Positions 19,859 through 61,500 of a stretch of DNA of 64,000 bases are shown here, piece after piece. The notes beneath the pieces are model-generated. The model had not been told where the DNA came from. It did not search any database and was given only the letters and a program-made list of their open reading frames with translations. Position 1 is the stretch's first letter. Each line of letters starts with the position of its first letter. Made by a program: the position numbers and the translations under genes. Source of the DNA: Lichina pygmaea (Eukaryota; Ascomycota; Lichinomycetes; Lichinales; Lichinaceae); assembly GCA_963422465.1 (NCBI GenBank), contig OY730171.1, forward strand, positions 5,042,202 through 5,106,201, read 5' to 3'.

Positions 19859-22800
19859 AGGACCATCACTTCTGATAATCACCGCACTTTGTCAGAAGTC
19901 CTGGAAACCAAGCAAGTATCTGTCTGCAACCACCAAAACCTTAAGGTGAAACCCATCACTTTGGGTAACCCAGCCTGTTTGTCAAAAGTTGTGATCTCTG
20001 AATCTTCAATCTTTAACTTCAACAACTAACAGACTACTTACAACAAGAGAGAGAGTGGCCAGGGGTATTCTGAAAGACTGGGGACAGACCCCAATTACCT
20101 AGGAACACTCAGTCTTGGGGTGTGGTCCCAGGATTGAGCAAGTACTTCTAGTCTGACAGAGATAACAGCTTGAATCTCTCTCAAGAGAAACATCTAGCAC
20201 CAAGGAGATCAGGACTCCCAGAATAAGAGGAATAGTTTAGAGCTTACCTCTAGTACTGGTAGAGTTGAAAAACTCTAGGAAAGCTCAGGCAGAGGGTGTG
20301 GTCTCCAGCTTGAGTCAATACAGCCAGATTTCCCTAGAGTCTAGTTGGAAAAGACTGCCCAGGAAAGTACAGTCTTGGGGAGTGGTCTCAGGATTGTGCA
20401 ACTACTGCTAGAAACCAGGTGACCTTTTGTGAATAACCAGCTGTGCAGGTCACATACTCTATACCTTCCAAAAAAAAGAAACCAGATTCCTCCCAGAACT
20501 TCACCAGAACAGCAACACTTTCTTCAACAATGCCAGCTCCCAGTTCTGCTAGCACTCAGCCTAGTGCTTCTACTCCCTAACCAGCTCTCCAGCATAACTA
20601 CAATCTACTGGACTTATAGCTCAAGACTCAAGCTACCCCAGAACCTATACTGAAAAGCTGGGAGAATATTAAGAAAAACTCTTCTACTACTGAAGCCCAG
20701 TCTACCAAAACCCAGTCTCTCTCCACTGGTCTGACCAACAAGATTTTCCAGAAGCTGGAGAATATTAACAAGTGGCTAGACAAGCAAGAATCTAAGCCAT
20801 CATATGCCCAGGCAGTCTAAAAACATATTCCAGCTTAAATCCCTCTAGCTTCAAGGATTCTGAAGGAAGTTCTTGTTCACCCTGGTAACCAGACATCTGA
20901 CATAGCTAACAGAACTCACATCCAGTTATTCCAAGCTCTTCAAGACAGACTCCCCAGCCTCTACAACAAGCAAGTCAGAGCAGTAAGAAAGCTCCCCTCA
21001 GAGAACATTCTTATTAACACTGAAACTCAAGAAACCAAGACTTTCCTGGAGAAAGACTCTGCCTGGATATCAGCTATCTTCACTAAGAAAGCAACTATCC
21101 AACCCAAGAGATTTCCAGTGTTGATTCATGGAGTCAGAACTACAGACATCTAACTAGAAAACCTGGAAAAAACCTGCCAGACTATCTAGAACAGCAATCC
21201 ATCTCTGAGCAAGCAAATCACTATTCTGAGTCTACTGGTTAAAGAAGGCTATAGCTCAAAAGAAACCAGTTACCTCACTTCACCTAGATCTGGCCACCCC
21301 TGAACAGGCCAATCTTCTAATTAAGAGTGGAGTAGTGCTGGACTACAGATTGCATAAGGCAGAGTCTTTTCTGGCTAACACAGTGGTGGCACAATACTTC
21401 AAGTACTTTGGGTATAGACACCAAGCCTGCCTGTGCAGAAATCAAGCTGTTTGTGGGGTCTGTGAAGACTAGTATAAAAGAAGAACCTGCCAAATCTCTG
21501 AGCAGCTGCTAAAGCTAAAATACAGTAACTGCAAAGAAGCTCACCCAGTCTGGGCTAGTATATGCCCAGTACACCAAGAGGCAGTCAAGAAGGCAAGAGA
21601 GATATGGATCTCCCACCCAGGGAAGTATAAGATCCCCACTGCTACCTCTGTCCCAGTCACACAGTCTCCAGTTATTACCTTCCCTTTCACACAGACTCTT
21701 CCAGGGTGGAAAAGACAGAAAACCACAGAGCCAACCAGAAGCTCAGAGAGACTCAGAGAAGAGTCTCCAGAAGTGTAAATTCTGTCTACAAGATCAACAA
21801 ACACAGGGGGAAAGCAGTCAGCCAACCTTTTCAAGATCTTTGAAGATGAAATATCTACATGAAGACTACAAAGTTTACATTTCTGCAATATAATGTGCAA
21901 AAAAGCCAATCAGTTCAAGAGCTACTTCTAGCAACACCAACCCTCCAAGAAGTAGATATTATTGTACTTTAAGAACTCTGGAAGAATTCTTATCTTCAAA
22001 CTAGCACTTCAACTGTTTTTTCTTTTTTTCTTTTTTTATATTCCCCAGAGATTGGTAGAACTTGTTTTCTTATCAACAAAACTCTGAAACTATTATCTCT
22101 TCACCCTACTTTCTGGAGTAAAGACTTAATTTCTCTTGAAATTCATCTGGAAAACACCTCTACTTCTCTGTGAGTGTATAATCTATACTTCACTCCCTCA
22201 AGTCAAGAGAACTACTTAGAAGCATCAGAAGCTTTTCTCTATCTACTCCAAAATACTTTACAAGCAAAAGGGTAGTATATTCTTCTCACAGACTTAAATC
22301 TTCACCACTCTGACTAGTCAAAGAAAAGAAGACTATTCTGACACTGCACACAAGTTCTAAACTCTGATGAAAAACTCAAATCTGGAGTTAGCTATTACAC
22401 TCTTTACACCCACAAAAGCTAGATCTCTTTCCCACAAACTCTGTTTATCTATTGATCTCTTCTTTATATCTTCTTCTTTTTCTAACTTTTTTATCTTTTC
22501 TAAAATTGCTTTGCAGTTCTTTCATGAGTCTGACCACAGACCTGTGCTAACTAGCCTGGACCTGGACTTACCAAGAAAAACCTAGAAGCCAGAAAGAAAC
22601 TGGAAAACACTAGACACTAACCTGGCAAAACAAGACTGTAATAATTTACAGCTGCTCTTCCACTTTCAAGATAAATATAAAGTGGATAAGTACTTGGAAT
22701 ATCTTAACCACTTTCTCCAAGGAATAGTAGACAGATGTACAGAACTCCAGAAGCAATCTAGCCACTCAGTTCTCTGGTGGAACCAAGAGATCCAAACCAA

Positions 22801-24975
22801 AGTTAAGCAGGAAAGAAAAATAAGAAGACAAGTGCTCAGAGAACAGGTAAGTCAAGAAGAGCTAGAGCAAGCAACCAAGCTCAAGAAGAAAGCAGTCAGA
22901 GAAGGCAAACAGAACACCTTCAGAAAACAAGTTCATGAGCTAGCTAGTTCCTCAAAATTCTGGAAGCTTGCAAAGTGGGGAAAATCAAAAGCTAACAAGA
23001 CCTCTGATCTTTCTCTGGTCCCAGATCTGGAAACTCAAGAAAGACTAGCCAAAAGCTTTAAGAAGAAGACAAAGACTTTCTCAGCTTAATTCTTTCCAAA
23101 AGCACTTGTTCCAGAACCAGGTACAGAAAGCCACCAGAATACCCCAGAGATCCAGCTCTCCCAGGAGGTTACCACTGAAGAAGTGGAGTAAATTCTGAAC
23201 AAGAAGAAATCTTTTACAGCGGAAGGAAAAAACAAGCTGCCAAATAGATTTCTGAAAGCTCTAAGTTCCAACTTCTGCCAAGCTATAGCTGTTCTCACAT
23301 CAACATGCTGGAGACTGGAATACTTTCCAGAGAGGTTGAAGAATGTGAAAACAGTCTGTCTAAGAAAACCTGGCAAAGGAATCTACAACCAAGCTAAAGT
23401 CTGGTACTCTATAGCTCTGCTAAACACAACTGGCAAGCTGATAGAAGCTATTACAACAGCCAGACTAAGCAAGGTAGTAGAAGAAGCTAAACTCTTGCCA
23501 GAAATCCAGATAGAGTTCAGAAAAGGCAGATCAACTGAATCAGCATTTTTTCTTCTAACTTCCCAAGTGGAAAAGTCTGGAAAGAAGGTATAGTTGTATC
23601 TCTACTTTCTCTGGATATCTCAGGAGTATATAATAGAGTTCTTCCAGAGATTCTTCCAAAGATTGTGGAGAGAAAAGAAATTCCTCTCTGGCTAACTTCT
23701 TAGATCTTCTCTTTCTGTACCAGATGTACTACCAGTCTAGTTTTTCATGACTCTGAGTCCTTTTCTATTTCTATTCACTGTGGAGTCTCCCAAGATTTCT
23801 TTTTGTCTTCTATTCTTTTTCTATTCTATATTTCTGAACTTCATGAGACTGTACATTCTTCTACTACTGGTGTTTCTGCTCTGGGATTTGCAGATAATAC
23901 AAATCTGCTTGTATTTGGACACTCTTTTAAAAGCAATCTTCTGAAGTTGAAGAATACATATCTTAAATGCCTATCTTGGGCTGCAAGACATGGAATAGTC
24001 TTCTCTTCTGAGAAATATAAAATTCTTTATTTTTCCAGAAGAAGATCAGACAATCTACAGCTTAAGCTTAGACTTGGGAATGTGATTCTAAAACCAAAAG
24101 AAGAAGTGTGAGTATTGGGAGTATACCTGGATACCAAACTCCACTGGCACAAACACCAGAGAATTATTCTTCAAAAAGTACAAAAAGCACTATCTTTTTT
24201 TTCTAGAATCTCTTACTCCACCTGGAGTTTTCCAGTTCTCACAGTATGTCTTGTGTATACTGCAATACTCAGATCTGTACTGAGCTATACAGTGGGGATT
24301 TGGTTCAACCTACTCAGAAAATCCTCTAATATTTCCTTTTTTACTATATTCCAAAAGAAATGTCTGAGACTTATTGGGAGTGCTTTCAAAGCCACTTCTT
24401 CTTTTCTATTAGAGAGTAAGCTTTTCCTTTTACCTCTAGATCTCTATTTTAAATTTTGCAGTCTGTTTTCTTTTTTCTATCCAAACCTCCTCTCTGAAAA
24501 ACTTTCTTGACAGTACTTTTTCCACTATTTCTTTCTATACTTCTTCACTGAGAAAATCTTTAAAGAAATTCTCAACTATCTCTCCTAATTGGAAGTTCAC
24601 TTGGTTAAGTCAAATAACTACTAACCAGGCTAGTTCAAAAAAAGAACTACAAATACTCTTTACTAAAGAGTGGGAAAATTAATAGAAGAAGAAGAAAAGA
24701 AGAAGCTATGCTGGATGGCAGGTGTTTTGCCAAAAACCTCACTACAACAATCTGAAGTTCTACAAAAAGCTACAGAAAGCTGAGGTAAGTCTACTACTGC
24801 AAACCAGAACTGGGAGAATTAGTCTAGTAAGTTTTCTTTTCAGAGCTGAAGTCTCTGACTTTCCTACCCTCTTATGCATGTGTAGTCAAGCAGAAAAGAC
24901 AGTAAAACATATTACCTTTTCATACTCTCTCTACTCAAGTCAAAGACAACATGTTCTCTTCAACCCTCAAGATTT
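19857..24975 (+). mobile_element. LINE B (type I Tad-like), 5' and main part
   Basis: A near full-length LINE starting at AAGGACCATCAC, the same 5' end as LINE F. The 5' UTR runs to about 20.5 kb. A badly broken ORF1 follows at about 20.6-21.8 kb (near 21.4 kb a zinc-knuckle-like region is seen). ORF2 begins near 21840 (TFLQYNVQKSQSVQELL). ORF2 shows the endonuclease motif SDHRPV (near 22530), the WWNQEI linker, reverse transcriptase with RSTESAFFLLTSQVEK, and LGFADNTNLL in place of FADD. Its C-terminal part is interrupted by many stops and frameshifts. At 24971-24975 (GATTT) it was split by Copia C2; it resumes at 40252, and after Gypsy G2 at 46850. Confidence 0.8.
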
Positions 24976-26993: not shown

Positions 26994-29950
26994 TTTTTTT
27001 ATTTTATTTTATTCTTACTCTGATTTGGCTGGTGAGCTATGCAGAACTTCTAGATACATACTTTTTTTTCCCAGAAAACTAATGAAGGAATAAAAACTAA
27101 GACTTGGCTAAGACTAGGGAGTTATCTGGGAGAATATACAGTGTCTGGAGAAAATAAAATCACAGAGATGATAGGTTTTCTGGTAAGAGTTGGTGTGCTA
27201 AGTTAAACTGGTCTAGTCTTTTCAAAGACATAAACCAGAGAAGAAATTCTTTAAGCACTTTAGGCTTTTGAAGTAAAGTAGAGAAATTGTAGGAAAGAAA
27301 AGTGGCTTGCTGTCTTTAAGTAAGAAACTTGTTACAAGAGAAAGTGATATATTAAGCAGTCTCTTCTCCAAAACCACAGAAACAGAGGGGATTGGAAGTC
27401 TGGAATATTTGCTCTGAAAAGAAAGCTAGCTAATCCTATCCTTGCTGATAGAATCTGCAAGTAAAGACTAGCTTCAGCTTTTCTCAAGTCTTTGAAAACT
27501 TTGAGATTTTTCCTTTGGGGTAGTCTGCAAAATAGCTCCCAGACTGGAGAACACTTCTGTCTGTTTGCCTGCCATCTGGCTTCCCACTCTTTCTGAAACA
27601 CTTCTTGAAATTGCTTCTTAGAGTAATCTTGGTTAGTGGTTAGTTCTTCTAGCCATCTTGCTTTCCAGTTAGGTGTGACAGTAGACAGAGACTTTGGAGG
27701 TGTTCTCAGAGTAGAAACAAAAACAGTGATCTGGGAAAAGAGCTTATAGAGAAGTGAGGAGAGAGAATTAGAAGAAGTATTAGAAAAATAGAAAGATTGT
27801 AGGAAAGTTGCTGTTCTGAATTTGAACCAAAGATCAAGAGATGGTAGGAATAGTTCTCCTTCAATAAGAAATGTAGGAGTAGCTTTGAAGACACCTGCTA
27901 TAGTTTTTAGATATTTAGTCTGGAAAAGATTTAGAGAAGAAATATTAGAAGATTTTTTGTGGGGATTGAACCAGACTCCTACTGCATAGCTGAGAAGTGA
28001 TCTCAGTATTGCAGTGTAGACAAGTCCAGCAGAGAGAACAAGTAGACTCCATGTAGAAAAAGTAGTTCTGGAAAGTGCTGAGAAAAACTTGGAAGCTTTC
28101 TGTAACATGATTTTCTGGTGTTTTTTCCAGAGAAGCTTGGAATTATAGTGTAGTCCCAGAATACACACTTCTTGCTTAGGCTGTAGTACCACTTCTCCAA
28201 GTCTTAGACTAAGCTGAAGATTATCTGTTCTTCTTCTAGAAAAATAGAGAAGTTCATACTTTTCAGGTGCAAACTTCATTCCATGTTTTCTTGCCCAGTC
28301 TAAACACTTGGAGTGAGTAGACTTTAGCTTCAGGAGATTGCTTTTAAGAGAAGGGGAAAATGCCAGAAGGTTTGTATCATCTGCAAAGCCCAGAGCTGAT
28401 ACACCTTTCTCTGGTGTATGAACAATATTATGAAGATCTGAAATATAGAAAAGAAATAAAATAGGAGAGAGAGGTGAACCTTGAGAGACTCCACAGTATA
28501 CTGGAAACAAAGAAGACTCTGAATCATCAAAAACAAGAGAGGTTTTTCTTTGGGTAGTGAAAGAAAAGATCCAGTTAACAAACCAGCTGGGGATTCTTTT
28601 TCTCTCCAGGATTTTCTTGAGAATTTCTGGCAGAACTCTATCATAAGCTTCTGCATTATCCAGAGAAAGAAGACTGGCTACCATTCCTTCCTTCCAGACT
28701 TTTTCAACTTGGGAAGTGAGTAGAAATAGTGCAGACTCAGTTGATCTTCCTTTTCTAAAGTCCATCTGGATTTCTGGTAGCAGGTTTTCTTTCTCAGCTA
28801 GTTCACTTAGCTTTGTGGCTGCCAGAGCTTCCATCAGCTTCCCAATTGTGTTGAGAAGTGCTATTGGCCTCCAAGCTTTGGCATAGCAATAGGATCCTTT
28901 GCTAGACTTTCTTAAGTATATTGTTCTGGCTGCTTTGTATCTGTCAGGGAAATATTCTAGCTTCCAGCAGGCTTCCAGAACTTTGGCTATCTTTTCATTG
29001 AAAGAGTCTTCTAATACTTTTAGAAATCCATTAGGTAGAGTGTCTTTCCCAGGAGCTGTAAAAGGTTTTTTCTTTTTCAGAATATTGTGAATATCTTCTT
29101 TGGAGATTTCCTGAGATAGCTGGTGTTGTTGGTGGTTGGCTGGCTGGTCCTGAGATTCTGGTACTGGCTGGAGAGGTAGAGGGAAGAACTGGGTTTTGAA
29201 TACTTCTACTTTTTCTGTGAAAGTTCTGGCAGTTTCTCCATCTTGCTTTGTGAGCTCTGGAACAATTGGAAGTTCTGGTAGTTTGCCAGCTTTTTCTTTA
29301 CCCCACTTGGCTATTTTCCAGTGCTTTTGTGTTTCAGCCAGGTTCTGGAGTTGTTCTCTGAATATCTTTCTTTTAGTATTCTTGATCAGGTGTTTTTTTT
29401 TCTTTATTACCTTTTCAAGTTTGTAGACTGGTTCTTGGTTTTGGAAGACTTTTCTTCTTAGTTTTCTTTTCTCTTTAATTTTCTCTTTAATCTCTTGGTT
29501 CCACCAGGGAACAGTGTACTTTGAGTCTCTCAGAGGTCTTGTTGTCTTGTCAGCCAGTTCTTGAAGAGCTTTGTCCAGGTTCTCCAGATAGTTGTCCACT
29601 TCCTCTCTGTTAAGTAGTGGTGGAATAGAGGGAAGATTCTTAGCTTCTTTCTTGACTTGGTCCAGATCTAGTGTTCTCCAGTTTCTTTGGTGGGTTCTGG
29701 CTTTCTTTGGTGTTTCCAGACTTAGGATTGTCTGAACTGGTCTGTGGTCTGAACCTGTGTGGAAGTCTAGGTTAATCTGGGAAGAAATAAAGAAATTAAG
29801 AAGTGATATAGAAATAAAAAATAAGTCAATAGCAGAGAAGGGAGGCTCTGCCAGTGTTCTTGCTCTTGTTAGTGTGAAAGTTGCTATTGCCAGCTCTAGT
29901 CCTTGATCATCTGTGAGTTCTTTGAACTTAGTAGCTAGTTCAGAGTAGAG
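26994..29950 (-). mobile_element. LINE C (type II Tad-like), 5' truncated
   Basis: Inserted into the right LTR of Copia C2 with an 11-bp duplication ACTACAGTGAG (26983-26993 and 39980-39990). The last five 5' bases (39975-39979) lie beyond Gypsy G1. The 3' tail is at 26994-27060 (AATAAAATAAAAT and TTCTGCATAGCTCACCAGCC on the minus strand). From 29950 to 27332 one long frame is open. It covers the end of the endonuclease (SAIDLFFIS, GSDHRPV), the WWNQEI linker, reverse transcriptase (RKGRSTESALFLLTSQVEK, CGVSQGSPLSPILFLFYIS, ALGFADDTNLLAF) and the thumb/C-terminal region. Near 27390 the frame shifts, so the final C-x-C-x8-H-x4-C knuckle seen in LINE F is lost in this frame. It is the best-preserved reverse transcriptase in the window. 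Confidence 0.88.
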
Positions 29951-30583
29951 TGTTGCAGTCTGTACCATACTGTCCTATCCGAGTATAGGATTAGGGTGAG
30001 AGGTGGAAGGTGGGTTGGTTCTCGCAGGAGAGGAGTGTCAAGGAGTGTGAAGAAGTTTGGTGGAACGTGGTGGTGATGACACCTGATCAGTGGCTTCGTA
30101 CAAGATTGTATTGAAGTAGATCTAGTTGTCTGGATTACAACATGAGTTGAAGACAATCATTCCATAAGGGAACTATCACCAGACTATATAGTGCTCAGTC
30201 CGCGAGCTCAGTGAGCTCTGCTCACTTTGCTCACTTGTTCATGCATGCTGCAGTGAGCTGGGTGAGCTCTGCTCACTTTGCTCACTGTTCATGCACACTG
30301 CGGCAAGCTGGGCAAGCTCTGCTCACTCTGCTCACTTGTCCATGCATGCTGCAGTGAGCTGGGTGAGCTCTGCTCACTTTGCTCACTGTTCATGCACGCT
30401 GCGGCAAGCTGGGTGAGCTCTGCTCACTCTGCTCACGCATATGCATGCTGTGGCAAGCACCCCCTGGTCAGTCTCACCGGTCACGTGACTGTTTCCCATG
30501 TTATACTGCCTGGTACTTCTGTCCAGTATCCTGTCTGCTGCTTTCTGTGAGTATAAAGACTGTGTCCCTCCTGGGTTGTAACA
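29951..30583 (-). repeat. Left (3') LTR of Gypsy G1
   Basis: 633 bp, TGTTGCAGTC...GGTTGTAACA. It contains a minisatellite of about 54 bp (AGCTGGGTGAGCTCTGCTCAC units, about 30200-30450), with one unit more than the right LTR. It matches 39387-39969 and the first ~270 bases of the G3 LTRs. Confidence 0.9.
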
Positions 30584-30698
30584 CTATCCTCCTCTCCATC
30601 TTTCATCATCCTGATGAAATCCAGTCATACCTCCAAGGTCACGTGCAACTGTTAGCTGAACTCAGCTTACTGCTCAAATCCGCGATCAGAGTTTTGTT

Positions 30699-30941
30699 TT
30701 GTGTACACTCTGCGACTTTTGTGTTCTCTGTAGTTGTCTGTGCTTCCAGATGCCGGGAGAAGACGATAAGTTAAAATGTGCTGTGTGCACTCAGCGCAGG
30801 AGGTCTTGTGTCTCTGTGTCCTGGGAATCTTTGAACATGTCCCGGGACAACCTCTGTGAGTATGTGGCCACTGACAAGGCAACACACAACACACTTTTCA
30901 AACAACTTGCCATAGTGCAGGCTTGTCTGTCTCAGAAGTGA
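30699..30941 (+). CDS. Opposite-strand Zn2Cys6-like/coiled-coil reading frame of G1
   Basis: Open plus-strand frame tail-to-tail with the minus-strand pol of G1. Cysteines at 30711, 30720, 30741, 30777, 30786 and 30807 have the spacing C-x2-C-x6-C-x11-C-x2-C-x6-C, the fungal Zn(II)2Cys6 pattern. A helical, Leu-rich stretch follows (SWESLNMSRDNL). An ATG lies at 30750 within the cluster; the true start is not clear. It is a part of a fossil element, and no function is known. The same arrangement occurs in G2 and G3. Confidence 0.55.
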   Translation: MCTLCDFCVLCSCLCFQMPGEDDKLKCAVCTQRRRSCVSVSWESLNMSRDNLCEYVATDKATHNTLFKQLAIVQACLSQK

Positions 30942-31617
30942 AAGGTATTGGAGGGTGCCGAGGTCTGTGCAAGGCAGAAGCTTCAGTGCCTGGTGAAAGA
31001 GATGGAGTTGGATGGCGAGGATTTGACTTGATCAGTTATTGACACATCCCTCCTGCAGGCTGAGCTGTTCAGTCCTGCTCCTGCTGAAACTGTCGCAGAA
31101 GAAGCTGGCAGTTCACAAGATTCTTGAGTGGTTCCCAGGTATTTTCCAAGTCTGGGTATTCTTTCCACTTGACAAGGTAATGCTGACTTTTCCTAGCCAG
31201 GATCTGTTCAACTTCAAACTCTTGTTCCTCTTCAGGTTGATAATGAAATGTTTCCTGCAAGGGTGTGCTCTGGTCAGCTGGTTCAATCATCAGTATGTGA
31301 AAGTTTGGATGGACTCTGGCATCTCTTGGTAGTTGTATCTTGATGTTGACTGGTCCTGTTTTCTTTTTGACTGAAAATAGTCCGACCTTGATGTTGTTAA
31401 GTTTCTTTGTCTTTGGCTTTTTTGTTTTCCAATTTCTTGTGAGAAGGTAGACTTTATCCCCCTTCTTTAGCTGAGGTGCTATTTTTGTTTTCTTGTCCAT
31501 TTGACGTTGCATTTTTTTGAGGTCTCTTGAAGATAGTGCTTTATTATTGTGTGTGTTTGTCATAGGAGCTTGTCATGTTGGAGTGCTTTCTCTGTGTTTG
31601 GTGAAGCTCTGCTTGGT

Positions 31618-33450: not shown

Positions 33451-36448
33451 TTTTTATTTTTATTTTTTTTATTTCATTCTTACACTGGTAGTAGCTTTAC
33501 AGCCATGCAGATCTTCTAGCTAATAGTGAACTCCTTCAGAAAACCTTTGAAGGGATAAAAACTGAAGGCAGGGTGTGACTAGGGAATGTAACAAAAGGAA
33601 TCTTGAAGTTTCTGGTAAGAGAAGAGAATCTAGGTATTGGATTGGGAATAGTGGAGTTTGAAAGCTAGATTAAACTGGTTTAGTCTTTTCAAAGACATAA
33701 ACCAGTACAAGAACTTCTGTAGTAGCTCTGGGTTTGAAATAATAGTGGTGAAGTCTTGGGGATTAAAAGAGACTTGTTGTCTTTGTCTTGAATAAAGAGA
33801 GCATGAAGAGGTGATATGTTTTGCAGTTTCTTCTGCTTGGCCACACACACATAGTGGGGTAGGGAAGTCAGGAACTCCAGCTCTGAAAAGAAAACTTGCA
33901 AGACCAATTCTTCCAGTCCTGATTTGCAGTAGCAGACTTGCCTCAGCTTTCTGTAACTCTTTGTAGAGCTTCAGATTGTTTTTGTGTGGCTTTTGACAGA
34001 AAGTCTGCCAGCCTGGATAGCTTCTTCTTTTCTTCTCTTCCCATTGGTCTTCCCACTCTTTAGTAAAGAGCTTTTGTAGTTCTTTCTTTGAACTAGCCTG
34101 GTTAGTAGTTATTTGACTTAACCAAGTGAATTTCCACTTAGGAGAGATAGTTGGGGATTCCTTTAAAGGTTTCTTCAAGAGAGAGGCATAGCTGGAAATA
34201 GTGGAAAAGATACTGTCAAGAAAGTATTTGAGAGGGGAGTTTTGAATAGAAGAAAGAAAACAGGCAGTGTGAAATTTAAAGTAGAGGTCTAGAGGTAGAA
34301 GAAAAAGCTCATTCTCTAATAGAAAAGAAGGAGTGGCTTTGAAGGCACCCCCAATAAGTCTTAGGCATCTGTTTTGAAATGAAACAAGAGAAGAGATATT
34401 GGAGGATTTTCTTAGAGGGTTAAACCAGATCCCCACTGCATAGCTCAGTAGAGATCTCAGTATAGCAGTGTACACCAGACATGATGTGTGAACTGGAAAG
34501 CCCCAAGTAGAATAGGAAGTTCTAGAAAGAGAAGAGAGTGCTTTCTGTGCTTTTTGAAGAATAATCCTCTCGTGTTTATGCCAGTGGAGCTTTGCATCTA
34601 GGTACACTCCAAGTACTCACACTTCTTCTTTTGGTTTGAGAATCACATTCCCCAGTCTGAGCTTAAGCTGAAGATTGTCTGATCTTCTGGAAAAATGAAG
34701 TATTTCATATTTCTCAGGTGAGAAGACTATTCCATGTCTTGCAGCTGAGGATAGACATTTGTGGTGTGTGTTCTTTAACTTCAGAAGGCTACTTTTCAAG
34801 GAGTGACCAAAAGCAAGCAGATTTGTATCATCTGCAAACCCCAGAGCAGATACACCAGAAGAGGGAGTATGCACAGTCTCATGCAATTCAGAAATGTAGA
34901 ATAGAAAAAGAATAGGGGATAATGGAGAATCTTGAGGAACTCCACAATGAATAGGAATAGAATAAGACTCAGAATCATCAAAGACAAGAGTGGTAGAGCG
35001 CTTATCACAGAAGGAGTAGATCCAGGAAGCTAGCCAGGCAGGTATTCCTTTTCTTTTCAGAATTTGCTGTAGTATCTTGGGGAGAACTCTGTCATAGGCT
35101 CCTGAGATATCCAGTGAGAGTAGGGATGCAACCATGCCTTCCTTCCAGACTTTTTCCACTTGGGAGGTTAGAAGGAAAAGTGCTGCTTCTGTGGATCTTC
35201 CTTTCCTAAAGCCTATCTGGATATCTGGCAATAGTCCAGCTTCTTCTGCTATCTTGCTTAGTCTGGCTGCAGCAATAGCTTCTATCAGCTTGCCTGTTGT
35301 GTTTAGCAGAGCTATAGGGCGCCAGGCCACAGTTGAGCTATGCCGAGGTATAGCGCAGAGTCGACATCTCGTGCAGGGTCTCTGCCACGCTTCCCCGCAG
35401 TCCTGAGGTCTTTTGCGCTCCGCCATGTACGCTCACCCCTAGGTCCTGCTTCGGAGCACTGGGTTGCCAGCCCGGAGCCCACGCTCCAACTGCAGTTTGC
35501 TCCTTGAGCCCATCATTTGCAGCCTGAGCCTGCACTCTGTACAGACCGGCATGCACTTCTGTCCTCTCGGGCTATATAGACAGTCTTGTAGTAGGCCCAG
35601 ACCCTACTGCCGTCACTGCCATTATATTCCACGCCCCGCAGCTCTCGCTGTTTCGTGTTATCTCTGTAGATCTCTTGTACAGAGGCCGACCATGCCTCGC
35701 AGGCTCTACAGACTCTGCAGGCCATGCCAGCACCTGCAGGACCACCTTTCCAGCCCACTAACCAAGTAGGGAGAAGTCTCTGTCTACCCGCTGTTGCCTG
35801 TGGGACTCCGGATGTACATGGTGGCCCACTGGAGAACCTCCAGTGCCCTAGCCCTGGTCTGTAGGTGGCCTGAAGAGAATCCATGGCAAGACCTTAGGCA
35901 AAACCATCAAGCCAGCACTTTGACTATCACACAGCCTTTACGTACTGGAGTGGCGGAAACCCTTCATGCCACCTGCTCACCTTCTTTAAAATGTAGTCCC
36001 TGCTCGATTAACAACACCGCAGTACAGACATTGCTCCCCTCCTAGAACAAGATCCTCGATGCATCAGCTGCTGGAGACTCTGCCAGAAGGGGGGTGTGCA
36101 ATAGGAACTCCTCTCGTCTACTCCAGAGGTGCCCTGTCAGGTGTCTAGACTTCACATCCACCAGTTGCAAGGCTGGCTTCAGACTGTAGCGTACACAGTA
36201 GATATCTGTCAGCTGGTTTTCATAACCAGTTTGGTTGAAGTCCTCTGTTCTGCTGATGTCGCTTCACAGGGGTGTCCAGGGTGCCTGCATGACACCTCCG
36301 GTGGCCTGTCACTCCACGGGCACCAGCAGCTTGACCGGTGACTTAATTAGCTCTCGGTGCAGCGACTACAAGCAGCTTGGGAGACTGCCTGCCATCGCTG
36401 CCCCAAGGTTCCCAGCCTGCACCGCGTGGAGGTTTGAGTCTTCGCAGG
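33451..36448 (-). mobile_element. Chimeric LINE D: 1.1-kb segment + type I LINE 3' half
   Basis: Inserted in G1 with the duplication CCTAGGAAAGCTTGT (33436-33450 and 36449-36463). The 3' tail is at 33451 (AT-rich, then the type I end CTAGAAGATCTGCATGG). The LINE part, 35326 to 33451, starts inside the reverse transcriptase at AWRPIALLNTTGKLIEAI. It continues through RKGRSTEAALFLLTSQVEK and ALGFADDTNLLAFG to a C-terminal knuckle (CVCGQAEETAKHITSSC). Only one stop, TGA at 34619-34617, interrupts this stretch. Upstream of the LINE part, in LINE orientation, is the 1122-bp segment 36448-35327. Both parts are enclosed by one target duplication, so they were inserted together. Confidence 0.88.
35327..36448 (-). 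repeat. 1.1-kb non-LINE segment of chimera D
   Basis: 1122 bp. It is less T/A-rich than its surroundings and ends at CTGTGG, followed directly by LINE reverse-transcriptase sequence. It is homologous to 14808-15902, where it is joined to a different LINE position. It contains a CTATATAG word near 35570. I do not recognise a coding capacity; short frames are open on the strand opposite to the LINE (35464-35769, 35794-36045). By position and size it resembles the WEIRD part of the Magnaporthe MINE element; sequence homology to WEIRD is untested. Confidence 0.75.
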
Positions 36449-39386
36449 CCTAGGAAAGCTTGTACTTCCTTAACTGATGTCAGTGTTGGCTATTGCTGAA
36501 TCACTTTGATTTTCTCAGAGTTGATCTTAATCTCTTTGATTCCTATGATGTATCTGAGGAATTCAACTTCCAGTTTGTTGAACTCACATTTCTTTGGGTT
36601 GAGCTTGAGCCCTGCCTTTTGTAGGTATTGTAGAACATCCTTCACATGTTTGGTATGTTCCTGTTGCGTGTTCGAGTAGACAAGAATGTTGTCCAAGTAG
36701 GCGATAGCTGTTTGGTCCAGGTGTGCTCTGATGACATTGTTGATCAATGCTTGACATGTTGCTGGTGTGTTTGTGAGTCTGAATAGCATAACCAGATACT
36801 TGTAGTGTCTGTATCAGGTTCTGAAGGCTGTTTTCCATTCTTCTTCTTCTTTCATGTGTATCAGGTTGTATGCTTCTTTCAAGTCCAGCTTGGTAAAGAT
36901 TGTGGCTTGGCTGATCCTGTCTCGCAATTTGTTCACATTTGGCAACAGATATCAGTTTTTGATGGTAATGTTGTTGAGTTTCCTGTAATCCACACAAAGT
37001 TGAAGACTTCTGTCTTTCTTTAGTGCAAATAGTATCAGGTATTCTGCTGGTGATTGAGATTCTTGAATGAAACTCTTTTTCAGGTTTTCCTCCAGGTACT
37101 CGCGAAGTACTTGGAGCTCTTTCTCTGATAACTGGTAAATTGGTCTAAATCCTGGCTCTGTCCCTGGTTGTAACTTGATCTCATGATCCCAAGGTTGGTG
37201 CTTAGGCAACGCTGCTGTTGTTGTCTCTTCCTGAAAGAGGTTATCATACCTAGGTCAGTACTCTTCAGGGATCTCCAGAGAGTTAACAACTTCCTCTCTC
37301 TTCATCTCTGACTGTTTGGCCACCTAGTTCTGGGGTATGCCTGTCAAGGCAGACTTCTTCTCTTGAGAGTTGTCCTTTCTGTCAGTGAGGTTCCACTGAC
37401 TCCTTCCCTCATCTGTCCACACCTTCTGCGGCTGGTAACAGGTCTGAGCTGTGTTGTTAGTGCAGTTCCTAAACATGAGTACTCCTGTCCTCCAGTTAAC
37501 AACTGGGTTGTGCTTCTTTAGCCAAGGCATCCCCAAATAGATATCCTGAGTGGCCAACTTGACAATATCAAGGTGGATCCTTTCAGCATAGTGTCCAGTA
37601 ACTATTTCTATTGGCTGTGTCTCATGGCAGACTAGCTCTGTCTGTCCATTTGCTATCATGAGCTGATAGGGCTGTCACTTGCATCTCTTTCCAGTGCTGA
37701 GGGTATTGTAAACTTGTCTTGAAATGTAGTTTCCACTGGCTCCAGAGTCAACAAGTGCGTATGTCCATATCAGCGTGTTGGCGTGTAGTGACACAGGCAA
37801 TCACAGGTGTTTTGTGTTGCTAGGGGTCATGTTGTTGAGCTCCTGATGTCACCCCTTGACAAGGGAGTTCAGTCTTTTCCTGATTGAAGTGTTTTTCCAC
37901 TGACTGGGCAATGGGTTCAGCTATTCCTATCAGTTCTGAGGAATCTGTTCATGAATTTGTCTTGCTGATGCTTGTCACATCAAGGCTTGAGGCAGTACTG
38001 CCAATTGTTGACGTAGCAGTTGTGGTTGTTGCCTTGCTGTGGAAATATGAGGTGTTCGTGCCAATCATGTGTGTGTCTGGGGAATGTGGTGTGTTGGTGT
38101 TTGTCCCAAAGATAGGTCTCACACATATCCTTCTTGCAATTGACCCAATGTTTGTGGCAGGTGGTGTGGTAGGGTGAATATCCTCTGTACCTTTGTAGTT
38201 GTTTATGGTAGGTGTAGTAGTGCTTTGTGCAAAACCTCCACTGTAGTTTGCTATACTGTAGGTTTCATGGGTCCATGCTGTAAGCATAGCTTCCTTGTGG
38301 TATTTCTTCTTTGATAGATGTGGGTTTGTCTTGGTCCCTATCAGAAGTGGTTAAGGGCTCCTATCTCTTGTCCTGACCTGTCTGTTCTGGTAGATCCTTG
38401 CCTCCTGATGTTGCCAGTTGGTGGACTGCTTCCAATATCTGATTGTAGTTGTCCTATTGTTCAAGAGATAGCTAAGTCTCTCCTGGTGGGTCCTCTGGCT
38501 TGATGACATTCCAGTCTCTGTCAAGTGTATTAAGTTGCTGTCAGTGCACCTTGTTCTTTGAACAACAGTCTTTTGCTATGTGGCCTAGCTTGCCACAGGC
38601 ATAGCACTTCAGTGCTTTCCTTTTTGTGTTGTTTCTTCCCTTTGTGAACTTTCCCTTGTGGTGGACTGCATCCAGTTCCATGGGTGCATAGCCATATGGA
38701 TCATGTGGCAGTGCCTTGTTAGGTGGCTTGTAGTGGTTGCTCACATGCCATGTGGGGTGGCTGTATCCTCTGTCACAGTGTTTCTCCATCGCTTGCTTGA
38801 ACAGTTTGTCATCAATGTTGATTGCTTGTGTGATGAGTTTGTCCAGTGTGTCAACCACTCATCTGTCAAAGGTGATTTCATCCTTCATGTTTTCCTTGAG
38901 TCCACGTCAGTACATGACCATCAGGGTGTCATTATCCCAATCAGTCAGTACTGAGTATTGTTTGAACTGTGTGGTGTACTCTACAGCTGAGCATTGTTGT
39001 TTAATGTGCTGGATCATTTGTATAGCCACTTTGTCTTTGTTAGATGGTCCAAGGATTCTCTTGATCTTGTCCTTGAATCATGTCTATTTTGTCATCCATT
39101 CTGTTGTGCTGTTGTGGTCTCTGTTTCCTGAGAGATGTTTGTTGACATAAGACTTGATCCATTGATAAGTATTACCTCTCATGTAAGTGGTTGTGAAGAG
39201 GGGCCACTTCTTTTTAGACAGCTTTGTCTCTGGTTGGAATTGAAAGTAGACTTGGAGTTGCATGAGCCAGTCGTCAACCTTATTTCTTTCACTGTAGAAC
39301 AGGTCTGGCTTGGCGACACTAATCTTTCCATCTGGGAATCTGGGGTTGGTTGCTCCTGAGGTACTTATCCTTGAGGGTCTTCAAAG

Positions 39387-39969
39387 TGTTGCAGTCTGTA
39401 CTGTACTATCCTATCCGAGTATAGGATTAGGGTGAGAGGTGGAAGGCAGGTTGGTTCTCACAGGAGAGGAGTGTCAAGGAGTGTGAAGGGTTTCAGTGGA
39501 ACATAGTGGTGATGACACCTGATCAGTGGCTTTGTACAAGATTGTATTGAAGTAGATCTAGTTGTCTGGATCACAACATGAGTTGAAGATGATTGTTCTA
39601 TAAGGGAACTATCGCCAGACTATATAGTGCTCAGTCTGTGAGCTCAGTGAGCTCTGCTCACTTTGCTCACTTGTTCATGCATACTGCAGCAAGCTGGGTG
39701 AGCTCTGCTCACTTTGCTCACTTGTTCATGCATGCTGCAGCGAGCTGGGTGAGCTCTGCTCACTTTGCTCACTGTTCATGCACACTGTGGTGAGCTGGGC
39801 GAGCTCTGCTCACTCTGCTCACACATATGCATGCTGCGGCAAGCACCCCCTGGTCAGTCTCACCGGTCACATGACTGTTTCCTGTGTTATGCCACCTGGT
39901 ACTTCTGTCCAGTATTCTGTCTGCTGCTTTCTGTGAGTATAAAGACTGTGTCCCTTCTGGGTCGTAACA
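39387..39969 (-). repeat. Right (5') LTR of Gypsy G1
   Basis: 583 bp, TGTTGCAGTC...GGTCGTAACA. It is followed by the target duplication TAGAG. Differences from the left LTR are mainly transitions plus a changed number of ~54-bp units. The gag start lies only a few tens of bases inside this LTR. Confidence 0.9.
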
Positions 39970-40390: not shown

Positions 40391-40814
40391 TGTTAAAGGC
40401 CAGGCCGGATTCACACAGAAACCAGCGCAGTCTGTTGCTTCGCAGGGCGGATTCTAGACAGGGACTTGGTAGAGGAATAGACAGGTGGGGTAACTCTCCT
40501 GTGCTATTGTCTCAGTACGATGTGTGCATTGGTGTTCAGCCTGGAGAGCTAATCCCTCCGGGCCCTTTGGGGGGTCTTTATACAGATGCCCCAAGGGGGG
40601 GGGTCTCCTCAAGGGGTATCATCCTTTTGTGTGGACAAGCTCCTCCCTTAGCTCCTGCTTGTCCACTGGACAAGCTCCTCGCTTAGCTCCTGCTCGTCCA
40701 CTGGACAAGCTCCTCGCTTAGCTCTTGCTTGTCCACTGGATCAGTCGGATGTTGTTCTGTATGACTAACACTCCTCCCTTGCTTACCTGGGCTGTTCCGG
40801 CCTAGGCCTTAACA
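40391..40814 (-). repeat. Left (3') LTR of Gypsy G2
   Basis: 424 bp with three tandem units of about 35 bp (GGACAAGCTCCTCGCTTAGC...) near 40636-40742. The right LTR has four units, which accounts for its extra 35 bp. Confidence 0.9.
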
Positions 40815-40899
40815 CTATCCCCTCCCTCCAAGGGTTCTGTCCCCAGATCCTTTTTGTTCCTGCTCCTCTTTTGTCATGAACCAAGGCCAGACAACTTGA

Positions 40900-41448
40900 A
40901 CTTGTCGTCGCAGTTTTCTTTCTTGTTGTATTGGCAAAATAGGCAAGGAATCGAAAATCGCATGCGGTGCTTGTCATCATGACCACGCCCAGTGTGTTGT
41001 GAGCTCTGCATCATCTTTTTGTTGTCAGTGTGTTGAGAAGGGTTATCACTGTGACCTTCATCTCTCGGAATCAGAATGGAAGAAGATGGAACTTGAGTGT
41101 GAGCAGCTCAAGGCTCAGCTGCGGGAGACTGATGACCAATTGTCAAAGTTGCTTCCCCGGCAGATCTGCCTCCACTGGCAGCTGGGTTGTCTCTCGCAGA
41201 AGGAGGCTGATGCCATCTGTCGTGAGCTGTCAGCTATCAAGGATCAAGAGTCCCTTGATGCTCAGGAACAGGAGGCTCTCCATGTTATCAGTGAACAGGA
41301 GGCCAGTCGGACTGCTGCTCCACCATCCTTTGAGGACATCTTCTCTTCAGAGACTTTGATTTCTCTCAAGCTGTTGTCCCTGTCAGACCTGGTCGCTGCG
41401 GGTTTGCTTGGTGGTAATCCACCAGCTTCTGGTTCATCACAGGGCTGA
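40900..41448 (+). CDS. Opposite-strand Zn2Cys6/coiled-coil reading frame of G2
   Basis: The plus frame is open from 40900 to 41448, opposite and tail-to-tail to pol. Cysteine codons at 40963, 40972, 40993, 41020, 41029 and 41050 give C-x2-C-x6-C-x8-C-x2-C-x6-C, an exact Zn(II)2Cys6 spacing (CGACHHDHAQC and CCQCVEKGYHC). Next comes a charged, Leu-rich, coiled-coil-like region (SEWKKMELECEQLKAQLRE) and a Ser/Leu-rich tail. No ATG is evident at the start of the open stretch. Binuclear Zn clusters of this kind bind DNA in fungal regulators; whether this one did is unknown. It is part of a fossil element. Confidence 0.6.
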   Translation, partial: TCRRSFLSCCIGKIGKESKIACGACHHDHAQCVVSSASSFCCQCVEKGYHCDLHLSESEWKKMELECEQLKAQLRETDDQLSKLLPRQICLHWQLGCLSQKEADAICRELSAIKDQESLDAQEQEALHVISEQEASRTAAPPSFEDIFSSETLISLKLLSLSDLVAAGLLGGNPPASGSSQG

Positions 41449-47743: not shown

Positions 47744-47965
47744 TCCAGAACAAATATCTGAGACTTATTTTTTTTTATTCTTACACTGATTTAGCTGTAG
47801 AGCCATGCAGAACTTCTAGGTACATGTTTGTTTCTCCAGAAAACCTTTGGAGGAATAAAAACTGGAGCTTGGGAAAGACTAGGGAAAATCTTGTGGAATA
47901 TGCAGTAGCTAAGGAAATTTGTACATGTAGCTATTTGTTAAAACAAACAGTTGACTTGGTAGAGC

Positions 47966-53977: not shown

Positions 53978-54611
53978 TGTTGCGGTCTGTACCGTACTGT
54001 CCTATCCGAGTATAGGATTAGGGCGAGAGGTGGAAGGCGGGTTGGTTCTCGCAGGAGAGGAGTGTCAAGGAGTGTGAAGGGATTTGGTGGAACGTGGTGG
54101 TGGTGACACCTGATCAATGGCTTCGTACAAAAGGATTGTATTGAAGTAGATCTAGTTGTCTGGATCACAACATAAGTTGAAGATGATTGTTCCATAAGGG
54201 AACTATCGCCGGACTATATAGTGCTGGCCCATCAAGACAATCAAGATTGTCTTGACAGTCTCGATGTCAAGACAGGTGAGATTGTCTCAACAGTCCCACC
54301 ATGTTATGCACCCTGCGTCAAGATGGGTGAGATTGTCTCAACAGTCCCACCATGTTATGCACCCTGTGTCGAGACAGGTGAGATTGTCTCGACAGTCCCA
54401 CCATGTTATGCACCCTGCGTCGAGACTGGTGAGATTGTCTTGATGCTTCATGCATCCTGTGTCAAGACTGGTGAGATTGTCTTGATGCTTCATGCATCCT
54501 GCGTCAAGACTGGTGAGATTGTCTTGATGCTTCATGCATCCTGCGTCAAGACTCCTGTGTGTGTCTTGACAGTCATGTGACCCCTTGTTGGTTGGTCACT
54601 TGACTTCCATG
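53978..54611 (-). repeat. Left (3') LTR of G3, first part, with minisatellite
   Basis: The first ~270 bases match the G1 LTRs. The rest is a different minisatellite, with 51-bp units (GGTGAGATTGTCTC...CATGTTATGCACCC) starting at 54275, 54326, 54377 and 54428, followed by ~42-bp units. It is interrupted by Copia C1 at CCATG; the last part is 58101-58169. Confidence 0.85.
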
Positions 54612-54806
54612 TGTTGAAGTTGGGCGATCTGCAACGTCATACCACGTGACTTACAGAAGGGCGCTAACCCTAGATTGGGAGGAAGGAAGGTTTTCTCATT
54701 TTTCATTGTAGACGAATGTCTTAGTACATCCTATTGAATACAAGATCCTATTGTCTTCTAAGTGCCTTGTCATTCTGAAGTGTCACCGACACCGATTATC
54801 CCAACA
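54612..54806 (+). repeat. Left LTR of Copia C1
   Basis: 195 bp, TGTTGAAGTTGGGCGATC...ATTATCCCAACA. It differs from the right LTR at one position (CCTTGTC against CCTCGTC). Confidence 0.95.
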
Positions 54807-57800: not shown

Positions 57801-57900
57801 GATGTCAGCTAATGGAAGCAGCAGCGGACGAGGACGGTGGGCCCACATACTCACCTTGGGGAAGCTAAATTGCAAAGTGGAGGTGCAGCTCAAGGGGGGG

Positions 57901-58095: not shown

Positions 58096-58213
58096 CCATG
58101 GTGTCCTCTTGCCTGGCCCGTGACCTGATTGCCTATAAATGAGTGGCTCCCATCCTCTGGGTTGTAACACTACTCTCCTCTCCTTCATTCATCGTCCTGA
58201 TGAATTCTTGAGT

Positions 58214-58522
58214 ATGTCTGCAAAATCATGTGCCTCTGCTTACCGAAACCAACTGGCAGCCCAGATCTGTGATCATAACTTTGTGTCGCTTGCTCTGTGT
58301 GACTTCTGTGTTTTGAACCACAAGCTCTGCTTCTGAATGTCTGACGACAACGATAAATTGAAGTGCGCTGAATGCACTCATCATGGGAAGTCCTGTGTGT
58401 CACTTTCTTGGGAGTCGCTGAACATGACTCAGGATAACTTTCGCGAGGATTTGGCTATTGATGAGGCCAAGCGGGATGCTCTTGTTGAGCAGCTTGCCGA
58501 GCTGCAGGCTTGTGTGTCCTGA
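58214..58522 (+). CDS. Opposite-strand Zn2Cys6-like region of G3
   Basis: This plus-strand stretch opposite pol shows two C-x2-C-x6-C half-clusters close together (CDFCVLNHKLC at 58298-58330 and CAECTHHGKSC at 58364-58396). A helical Leu/Glu/Ala-rich segment follows (DEAKRDALVEQLAELQAC). It corresponds in position and sequence to 30699-30941 in G1. It is a fossil part, listed for comparison only; I make no statement on a working product. Confidence 0.5.
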
Positions 58523-61500
58523 AAGCGAAAGGTTCTTGAAGGTGCTGAAGGCTGAGCAAAGAAGAAGCTCCAGTGCCTTGTTGCTGAAATGGAGGTGGAT
58601 AGTGAAGACTTGTCAGCAACGGTTATTGACATGTCCGCGCTGCAGGCTGAGCTGTTCAGTCCTGCCTCTGCTGGAACTGCTGCAGGAGGAGCTGGCAGTT
58701 TGCGAGGTTCCTGAGTGGTTCCCAGGTATTTTCCGAGTCTGGGTAGTTTTTCCACTTGACAAGGTATCACTGACCTTTTCTCTTCAGGATCTGTTCAGCC
58801 TTGAATTCCTGTTCTTCCTCTGGTTGGTAATGAAATGTTTCCTGCAAGGGTGTGCTCTGGTCAGCTAATTCGATCATTGAGATGTGAAAGTTTGGGTGTA
58901 CCCGAGTGTCTCTCGGTAGTCGCAGTCTGACGTTGACTGGTCCAGTTTTTTCTTCGACTGAAAATAGTCCGACCTTGACATGGTCCAGTTTTTTTGTTCT
59001 TGGTTTCTTTGTTTTCCAATTTCTTGTGAGAAGGTAGACTTTATCCCCCTTCTTTAGCTGAGGTGCCATTTTAGATTTCTTGTCCATTTGATGTTGTATT
59101 CTTTCTGAGGTTTCTTGAAGGTAGTGCCTCATCATCGTGTGCGTTTGTCGTAGGAGCTTGTCATGTTGGAGTGCTTTCTCCGCGTTTGGTGAAGCTCTGC
59201 TTGGTATCCCGATGTTCGCATGTTGTCCAAAATTGGCAAAAAATGGCGATTCCTTTGTTGAGTCTGATCTGTGCTGGTTGATTGCCAGCTGTGCCACCGG
59301 TAATAACTGTACCCAATTGCTGTGGGTCTGGTTGATGTAATGCTGTAAGTAAGTCTCTAGGACTTGGTTTGCTTGCTCTGTCTGGCCGTCAGTTCATGGG
59401 TGATAGGCCGTAGACATTTTGGGTTTTGTTCCCATGGCTGCACTGATTGTCTTCCAGTAGTTGGATGTGAAGAGTTTGTCTCTGTCTGTAATGATCATGA
59501 TCAGAACTCCGTGGTCTCTGACCAATCTGTCCAGTAAAAGGTGTCCCAACTGTTCTGCTGTGTGGGTCTCCTTGAATAGTACTGCTATTAGATATTTTGT
59601 GAATCTGTCCACTATCACCATAATCAAGTCGTAGGTGATTCCTGTGACTGGGTCTTTGGACTTGGGTAGCTTTGTGATGAAGTCTATTGACATGTCTTCC
59701 CACAGGCCTCTCGGTATCATGTTCGGGTGTCCTTCTCCGTATAGCTTGTGTCTTCCATGTTTGTTTTTCTGGCATAGTAGACACTTGCTGATGTAGTTTG
59801 TGACATGTTGTCAGAGGTTAATGACATTGTTCCCTGCCTGTTGGATAAGGTCTGTGGTCTTGGAGATTCCTGGGTGACTATGTGCTGGATTGTCGTGGTA
59901 GTTCCTTATTAGTTCTTCAGTGTCTTCTGCTGTGAGCTTGTTGATCTGTGGCTGAGGCACCAGGTTTCCTTGCTGGTCCTGCTGTAAGATTGTTCCTTGG
60001 TGTTCATCATCTTCCATGTGGTCTTTTTGTTGGCTTAGTGTGTCTGCTCTCCTGTTGTCTTGTCCAGGGGTGTACAAGATCTTGAACTTGTGTTGCCCTA
60101 GGAGTTCAGCCCATCTGACTTGCCGTCTGTTCAGCTTCTTGGTTGTCGTGAATGTTGTCAGATTCTTGTGGTCTGTGAGAACAGTGAGTTCAGAACTGCT
60201 TTCCGCGTACACTCTCCAGTGTTTGAGTGCGTTGACGACTGCCAATAGCTCTTTGTTGTGGATATCATAGTTTTGTTCTGCTTGTGTCATTTTTCGTGAG
60301 TAGTAGGCAACTGGGTGCCACTTGCCATCTGCCTGTTGGCATAGACATGCTCCTACTGCCTGATCTGAAGCGTCCGTCTTGATTCGTGTTGGTTGGCCTG
60401 TCTTGAAGTTGAGGAGAACTGGTTCCTTGGCGCAAGTGTCCTTGAGCTGTTGGAATGCTTTTTGTTGTCTCTCCATCCACCAGTACTCCACGTTCTTCTT
60501 CGTGAGTTCTGTCAGTGGTGTTGCCATCTGTGAGTAGTTCTTTATGAACTGTCAGTTGAAGTTGGCAAATCCTAGGAAGGCTTGTACTTTCTTAACTGAC
60601 ATCGGTGTTGGCTATTGCTGAATCACTTTGATCTTCTCAGAGTCAATCTTGATCCCTTTGATCTCTATGATGTATCTGAGGAATTCAACTTCCAGTTTGT
60701 TGAACTCACATTTCTTTGGGTTGAGCTTGAGCCCTGCCTGTTGTAGGCATCGTAGAACATCCTTCACATGTTTGGTATGTTCCTGTTGCGTGTTCGAGTA
60801 GACAAGAATGTTGTCCAGGTAGGCAATAGCTGTTTGGTCCAGGTGTGCTCTGATGATGTTGTTGATCAATGCTTGACATGTTGCTGGTGCGTTCGTGAGT
60901 CTGAATAGCATAACCAGATACTCGTAGTGTCTGTATCAGGTTCTGAAGGCTGTCTTCCATTCTTCTCCTTCTTTCATGTGTATCAGGTTGTATGCTTCTT
61001 TCAAGTCCAGCTTGGTAAAGATTGTAGCTTGGCTGATCCTGTCTCGCAATTTGTTCACATTTGGCAACAGATATCAGTTCTTGATGGTAATGTTGTTGAG
61101 TTTCCTGTAATCCACACAAAGTTGAAGACTTCTGTCTTTCTTTGGTGCAAATAGTATCAGGTATCCTGCTGGCGATTGAGATTCTTGAATGAAACTCTTT
61201 TTCAGGTTTTCCTCCAGGTACTTGCGAAGTACTTGGAGCTCTTTCTCTGATAACTGGTAAATTGGTCCAAATCCTGGCTCCATTCCTGGTTGCAACTTGA
61301 TCTCATGATCCCAAGGTTGGTGCTTAGGCAACGCTGCTGTTGTTGTCTCTTCCTGAAAGAGGTTATCATACCCAGGTCAGTACTCTTCAGGGATCTCCAG
61401 AGAGTTAACAACTTCCTCTCTCTTCATCTCTGACTGTTTGGCCACCTGGTTCCGGGGTGTGCCTGTCAAGGTGGACCTCTTCTCTTGAGAGTTGTCCTTT

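Follow-up and report, generated by a model that had tools for sequence, protein, structure and literature searches.

Genes that run antisense to gag-pol, in the interval between pol and the 3' LTR, have been described in LTR retrotransposons of fungi and of plants. In Botrytis cinerea, the brtn gene of Boty-like (BcGypsy1) elements is described as lying in this interval and in this orientation (PMC7264820, PMC8365987); it was published in 2011 by Zhao et al. and is also reported from Sclerotinia sclerotiorum (PMC7264820, PMC8365987, PMC4227169, PMC5987419), and a Monilinia transcript is said to resemble truncated Pol and BRTN (PMC5987419). In plants, the aORF-3R genes of Retand (whose product has a TRP28 domain), Grande (gene23) and RIRE2 are likewise antisense and situated between pol and the 3' LTR, a nuclear or DNA-binding role has been proposed for their products, and tandem repeats are found near by in about half of young Retand elements (PMC7264820, PMC11963269); the function of such ORFs is called unknown in one of these accounts (PMC7264820). 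Both plant papers also draw a parallel with HTLV, where the antisense promoter lies in the 3' LTR (PMC7264820) and the gene is named HBZ (PMC11963269). In addition, the subfamilies of crapaud in Podospora anserina are described as set apart chiefly by U3 as far as the TATA box, with template switching proposed as the cause (PMC10787394), and for some Gypsy elements of fungi a figure legend mentions an 'additional ORF of unknown function' (PMC2864245).

The stretch of DNA analysed here, which we call the window, is 64,000 nt long and carries on its minus strand three Gypsy elements, G1, G2 and G3, each with an antisense (plus-strand) ORF between pol and the 3' LTR (Table 1). The preliminary description of this DNA knew of no formal account of such an arrangement; this cannot stand, since brtn of the Botrytis Boty elements (2011) and the antisense ORFs of plants are found at the same position. 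As far as the published descriptions go, our elements share with the brtn system what looks like a filamentous fungal host, a chromodomain Gypsy element (as in Boty; judged by eye only for G2) and one extra gene antisense to gag-pol in the pol/3' LTR interval, a likeness of position and orientation taken from those descriptions. With the plant aORF-3R elements, as reported, they share the antisense ORF in this interval and tandem repeats near by, but they differ from Retand in that the antisense proteins have no Pfam match to the TRP28 domain (PF04195), in that the repeats lie in U3 and not, as described for Retand, between pol and the 3' LTR, and in the length of the region from pol to the 3' LTR, which is about 0.5 kb in the elements of the window against 2.9-6.6 kb reported for Retand (PMC11963269). 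Crapaud is similar in being a fungal chromodomain LTR element with U3-differing subtypes; its figure legend names two ORFs and the word 'antisense' is absent from the text of the paper (PMC10787394), whereas the divergence in our elements continues through the antisense gene. The likeness to the additional ORF of PMC2864245 is that of an extra ORF named in a figure legend. Among the matches listed in a literature search, as represented by titles and the beginnings of abstracts, none was recognised that describes a zinc cluster for a Gypsy gene of antisense orientation. The arrangement itself is already known, and what is new is the possible link of the gene to U3.

Elements, antisense frames and control regions

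G1 and G3 belong to one family (93% identity in the compared parts of gag-pol) and G2 to another. Pfam detected Chromo and SH3_Tf2-1 in G1 and SH3_Tf2-1 in the scanned piece of G3. The 3' LTR of G3 is divided by a Copia-like insertion (54611-58095, plus strand) that lies outside the antisense-gene system.

Table 1. Positions of the Gypsy elements, their antisense genes and their LTR control features in the window
Feature	Position	Strand	Remark
G1 element	3' LTR 29951-30583 to 5' LTR end 39969	-	target duplication TAGAG
G1 3' LTR	29951..30583	-	TG...CA ends
G1 sense TATA-like box	30184..30191	-	CTATATAG, palindromic
G1 U3 tandem array	30211..30436		~50-bp unit x4.5, inverted repeats
G1 antisense-direction TATA box	30552..30557	+	31 bp inside LTR edge
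G1 antisense gene, decayed	30627..31127	+	start set by G3 alignment, ATA here
G1 open stretch	30660..30938	+	encloses cluster; TGA is the next codon
G1 six-cysteine cluster	30711..30809	+	C-x2-C-x6-C-x11-C-x2-C-x6-C
G1 pol end, SH3_Tf2-1 and chromodomain (Pfam)	31069..31572	-	stop codon 31069-31071
G2 element	3' LTR 40391-40814 to 46844	-	target duplication CAGAC
G2 3' LTR	40391..40814	-	
G2 sense TATA box	40577..40582	-	
G2 U3 tandem array	40632..40740		35-bp unit x3.1, inverted repeats GGACAAGC / GCTTGTCC
G2 antisense gene	40876..41448	+	ATG 40876; TGA 40897; then open 40900-41445 (182 codons)
G2 six-cysteine cluster	40963..41052	+	C-x2-C-x6-C-x8-C-x2-C-x6-C; within the open stretch
G2 pol stop codon	41366..41368	-	after chromodomain-like end, judged by eye
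G3 element	53978 to window end	-	5' LTR cut by window end
G3 3' LTR, first piece	53978..54610	-	
G3 sense TATA-like box	54214	-	
G3 U3 tandem arrays	54266-54440 (51 bp), 54408-54553 (42 bp)		inverted repeats
G3 3' LTR, second piece	58096..58169	-	
G3 antisense-direction TATA	58134	+	35 bp inside LTR edge, second LTR piece
G3 antisense gene, decayed	58214..58714	+	ATG 58214; three in-frame TGA
G3 half-clusters	58298-58330 and 58364-58396	+	same frame, one TGA in between
G3 pol stop codon	58656..58658	-	

The six-cysteine spacings that the preliminary description had read in G1 and G2 are both present where it placed them, as are both half-clusters of G3, which lie in one frame with a single TGA between them. 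The frame had also been described as lying opposite pol; it comes, however, after the pol stop, and it shares with the pol tail no more than its own last part (59 nt in G1, 59 nt in G3 and 83 nt in G2, stop codons included), because the antisense frames end at 31127, 58714 and 41448, past the pol stops. The in-frame stops before the terminal stop are all TGA, and number three in G1, of which one precedes the part compared below, three in G3 and one in G2, and the ATG start of G3 is ATA at the matching position of G1. The six-cysteine pattern is rarer in resampled sequence: it occurs three times in the window, against a mean of 0.025 per window in 200 order-2 resamplings, with one of the three matches (39655-39738) falling in an LTR tandem repeat and set aside as support. 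Resampling of the interval from the pol stop to the LTR produced it once in 3000 trials for G1 and likewise once in 3000 for G2; the G3 interval has zero matches because of the TGA between its half-clusters. The open stretch of G2 is, on its own, moderately unusual, its length being reached in 50 of 2000 resamplings. The charged Leu/Glu/Lys-rich stretch noted after the cluster is indeed there, but the coiled coil proposed for it finds no support in the 3.5-residue (heptad) periodicity, which is within that of shuffled sequences in all three proteins (observed value reached by 785 of 1000 shuffles for G1, 245 for G3 and 127 for G2).

Read in the sense direction, the U3 array directly precedes the sense TATA-like box in all three elements. 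In G1 and G3 the arrays are flanked by the sense TATA on one side and by an antisense-direction TATA on the other; no antisense-direction TATA is present at the edge of the G2 3' LTR. The repeat units are similar in length, and the arms of the inverted repeats read GTGAGC / GCTCAC in G1 and TCAAGAC / GTCTTGA in G3. When consensus units were tested, only the inverted repeats of G2 stood above shuffled sequence (score reached by 0 of 1000 shuffles, compared with 93 for the 42-bp unit of G3, 749 for its 51-bp unit, and 609 and 391 for G1). A later test on the real arrays, which used the real copies and a milder mismatch penalty, gave a stronger result for the G1 3' array, G2 and G3: the shuffles reaching the observed score, out of 300, numbered 6 for G1 3', 43 for G1 5', 0 for G2 3', 21 for G2 5', 0 for G3 3' and 0 for the window-cut G3 5', against 210, 212 and 81 for the R/U5 controls.

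The window also holds other mobile elements and a host gene. The Copia-like element within the G3 LTR is young (196-bp LTRs 99.5% identical; target duplication CCATG), and the one long ORF in it (54930-57785) matches gag, integrase and SH3, shows a sub-threshold zinc knuckle and gives no reverse transcriptase (RT) match, with about 0.1 kb left before the LTR; in its other frames RT was looked for by three RT motif strings only. From this content, the element may be RT-less and mobilised in trans. LINE-like copies, whose longer matches are about 66-86% identical, are located at 26997-29968, 47765-51217, 15911-19854, 21692-24975 and 33459-36448, the last of these interrupting G1 (at about 33459-36448); RVT_1 was found in 27335-29974, and the remaining copies were recognised by similarity. 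A CDK1-like host gene with two open stretches (5397-6575, plus strand) resembles the CDKs of filamentous ascomycetes, and from this likeness the host may be one of them.

Purifying selection on the G1/G3 antisense frame

Selection was tested on one pair within one family, G1 against G3; G2 is a single copy. The codon comparison covers G1 30660-31124 and G3 58247-58711, 465 nt each, which align ungapped from end to end at 68.6% identity with 52 transversions in 465 nt. A gapped nucleotide alignment of the same stretch has 16 gap columns, 70.2% identity and 48 transversions in 457 nt, and tblastn aligns the two antisense proteins without gaps (61% over 154). Substitutions number 39, 31 and 76 at the three codon positions, and pN/pS is 0.30 (150 codons, after dropping five stop-containing codon pairs). 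The two proteins have 94 of 155 residues identical, compared with 69.3 +/- 4.1 expected under random placement (reached in none of 5000 placements, maximum 84). When the pol overlap is excluded, there are 53 residue changes against 78.3 +/- 3.9 expected (0 of 2000 placements), and transversions alone, which deamination decay does not make, give 29 against 39.7 +/- 2.7 (0 of 2000). Furthermore, the cysteines common to G1 and G3 are six of six within the cluster versus two of eight at other positions (Fisher p 0.009).

For transversions, none of the other five frames stands out: the observed value is equalled or undercut by 171 to 1988 of the 2000 placements. The pol end, read in its own frame, carries the same kind of signal as the antisense gene (26 residue changes against 44.8 +/- 3.4; 0 of 2000). 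One minus frame, which has its third positions in common with the antisense frame, also falls below chance when all substitutions are counted (61 changes against 76.8 +/- 4.0; 0 of 2000) but is not below chance for transversions only (171 of 2000), and we take this signal to be a shadow, because it is the second positions of the antisense frame that change least.

In the G1/G3 family the antisense frame is thus what remains of a protein gene, now decayed, on which purifying selection has acted; conservation of its coding sequence between copies is seen in the comparison of G1 against G3 only. The codon-level check suggested in the preliminary description was passed for this one pair, and the accessory gene that it had supposed, running in the reverse direction near the 3' LTR, is supported. 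What this adds to the described systems is an antisense frame in another fungal-type element that is under protein-level selection and in which the cysteine cluster is kept (G1/G3).

The encoded protein and its possible role

Zn(II)2Cys6 clusters have the spacing C-x2-C-x6-C-x5..12-C-x2-C-x6..8-C, and basic residues and a proline are usual in the family. The frames of G1 and G2 have this spacing, and that of G3 has it broken by one stop. The antisense proteins resemble PF00172 regulators in the six-cysteine spacing and in the charged stretch that follows it, but they give no profile match, and the basic residues and proline are not clearly present. Pfam reported no match to Zn_clus (PF00172) at E up to 10, bearing in mind that HMMER filters may hide very weak matches and drop most above E ~0.1; neither other DNA-binding families nor bZIP families are among the Pfam matches of the antisense proteins. 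A PDB search with the G1 and G2 proteins recovered no zinc-cluster or DNA-binding relative: G1 had no relative, and G2 had one weak match, to B-cell receptor-associated protein 29 (E 0.45). The two AlphaFold models are both poor (pLDDT 46). Given the missing Pfam zinc-cluster match, the missing PDB relatives and the poor models, we do not class the protein as a Gal4-type regulator; of the Gal4-type membership proposed earlier, the cysteine spacing holds, and the Pfam match and PDB relatives (G1, G2) do not bear it out. The protein may nonetheless work like such a regulator. HBZ is a bZIP protein. The antisense gene is like HBZ, as that gene is described, in its place at the 3' end and in a promoter within the 3' LTR (a candidate promoter here), and unlike it in having a cysteine cluster and no bZIP match.

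The G2 protein is related to the G1/G3 protein distantly at best. The scores of the comparisons are weak, being reached by 27 and 44 of 2000 shuffles, so the two are not clearly related and no homology is claimed. Relatives were also sought elsewhere. In viral contigs, the G2 antisense protein gave 35 pattern matches, none confirmed, the G3 integrase gave one, unconfirmed, and the integrase-motif pattern gave none. In genome contigs, none of 53 pattern matches to the RT/RNase H alignment was confirmed, and the integrase-motif pattern led to 10 contigs, which we judge to be eukaryotic contamination. An antisense frame with one half-cluster lies downstream of the integrase motif in two of these ten (L001 and L010) and one with two half-clusters in none, L002, L006, L007 and L008 having less than 0.9 kb there, too little for such a frame to be likely to show; no outside relative of the antisense gene was found among the viral and genome contigs searched. 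On L010 (1-3720), which is labelled as a Thermoplasmata archaeon, there is a Gypsy integrase of eukaryote type, probably contamination, that ends in a chromodomain-like part; the single C-x2-C-x6-C half of this contig lies in an antisense frame about 1.5 kb downstream.

Around the observed protein gene of G1 and G3, with its selection, its kept cysteines and its overlap with the pol tail, we infer a regulatory mechanism. The explanation that we favour overall, tentatively and with the balance close to even, is an antisense accessory gene whose product regulates its own LTR as a zinc-bound dimer. Each element would carry an accessory protein gene of the brtn/aORF-3R kind, opposite to gag-pol and between pol and the 3' LTR, whose promoter would lie at the inner edge of that LTR. 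Its product would bind zinc through the two C-x2-C-x6-C halves and dimerise through the putatively helical stretch after the cluster, and the binding sites of the dimer would be the inverted repeats within the tandem arrays of U3. Since the arrays lie between opposed TATA boxes in G1 and G3, the bound protein would, in this proposal, tune (most likely repress) the sense transcription of its own element. The codon test, the six of six cysteines, the antisense TATA of G1 and G3, the U3 inverted repeats and the joint divergence of U3 and the antisense gene discussed below speak for this explanation. Against it stand the absence of any match to a zinc-cluster or DNA-binding family and of a PDB relative of this kind for G1 or G2, the poor models, the lack of a heptad excess, the lack of an antisense TATA in G2, a G2 protein not clearly related to that of G1/G3, the consensus-unit inverted repeats that rise above shuffles in G2 alone, the minus frame that is also below chance on all substitutions, the template switch that could by itself account for the joint divergence, and the size of the comparison, one pair of copies. 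Because the proposal offers a concrete target in the inverted-repeat U3 arrays, a function in self-control is directly testable.

Codon-level selection would fit a protein of any function, and it is quite possible that the antisense gene encodes a real accessory protein with another job, zinc-binding or structural, that acts on RNA, in nuclear transport or in the particle. The unmatched zinc-cluster profile leaves the DNA-binding step open to such a reading, and the first half of the G1 cluster is without a basic residue between its second and third cysteine; on the other hand, a DNA-binding dimer fits the neighbouring U3 arrays, which contain inverted repeats and, in G1 and G3, stand between TATA boxes of opposite direction. 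A functional antisense transcript, forming double-stranded RNA that damps the element, has been raised for plant elements in the account of PMC7264820, and G1 and G3 have a candidate antisense promoter from which it could arise. It is nevertheless improbable that RNA and not protein is the functional product: the third-position excess and the kept residues favour a protein frame and are not predicted by RNA alone, and the codon-level result already speaks against antisense RNA as the sole function.

The agreement of the cysteine spacing with Zn(II)2Cys6 could also reflect a host Gal4-type regulator captured by gene transduction, but no PF00172 match was reported and the proteins of the two families are not clearly related, so that a single recent capture is not visible, and we give this origin little credence. 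Finally, the in-frame stops in three of three copies, together with the only moderately unusual length of the G2 open stretch (50 of 2000 resamplings), would suit a chance open frame in which both the cysteine pattern and the open stretch are accidents of composition. Such a frame is very improbable, already disfavoured as it is by the selection on the frame and by a pattern far commoner than in resampled sequence.

Joint divergence of U3, antisense gene and pol end

Between G1 and G3, R/U5 has no transversions over 245 columns. Per site, the antisense gene has 0.105 transversions and the pol end 0.028, and the stretches from integrase to RT and from RT to gag have 0.0043 and 0.0024. Synonymous differences show the same order: pS is highest for the antisense gene (0.735), lower for the pol end (0.427) and lowest for the two stretches further in (0.133 and 0.085), each stretch being read in minus frame 0, the frame with the lowest pN/pS. 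The last transversion in the pol end is at 31488, and the U3 regions are unlike, with a 50-bp array in G1 and 51- and 42-bp arrays in G3. By these figures, G1 and G3 are nearly alike outside a single stretch, which begins near the sense TATA box of U3 and reaches into the final part of pol, and this divergent stretch of U3, antisense gene and pol end suggests, at the level of sequence, that it behaved as if one cassette had been exchanged. As the two elements differ mainly in U3, the antisense gene and the pol end, the supposed regulator and its supposed sites would have changed together. A template switch in reverse transcription explains the divergence simply, because the 3' end of the RNA supplies U3 to both LTRs, and frequent template-switch recombination in reverse transcription is described for an Arabidopsis Copia family (PMC5668417). 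However, one such switch would change U3 together with the antisense gene even without any regulation.

It is a rather unlikely extension of the favoured explanation that U3 makes up, with the antisense gene, a single control cassette that can be exchanged, consisting of an element-encoded dimeric repressor or activator together with its own operator array. If true, the cassette would extend from the sense TATA box to the pol end, and one template switch would carry the antisense gene and the operator together. Related elements with a common gag-pol differ in the cassette, so each subtype would control its own copies only, in a manner that may be likened to lambdoid phages differing in their immunity region. 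Such a cassette might also account for the variability of U3 in elements such as crapaud; what is new beside subfamilies limited to U3 is that the antisense gene travels with U3. The prediction for elements with U3-differing LTR subtypes, crapaud among them, is that any antisense frame should differ in step.

The remainder of the G1/G3 pair diverges in another manner. In gag-pol (G1 36449-39384 against G3 60571-63511) transitions prevail by 199 to 7, a strong bias, and about one third of the CpG and one tenth of the CpA sites are changed. Judged from the sites affected, these differences are CpG-type decay with a weaker RIP-like component, and their being mostly transitions, at CpG and CpA, makes decay after insertion likely.
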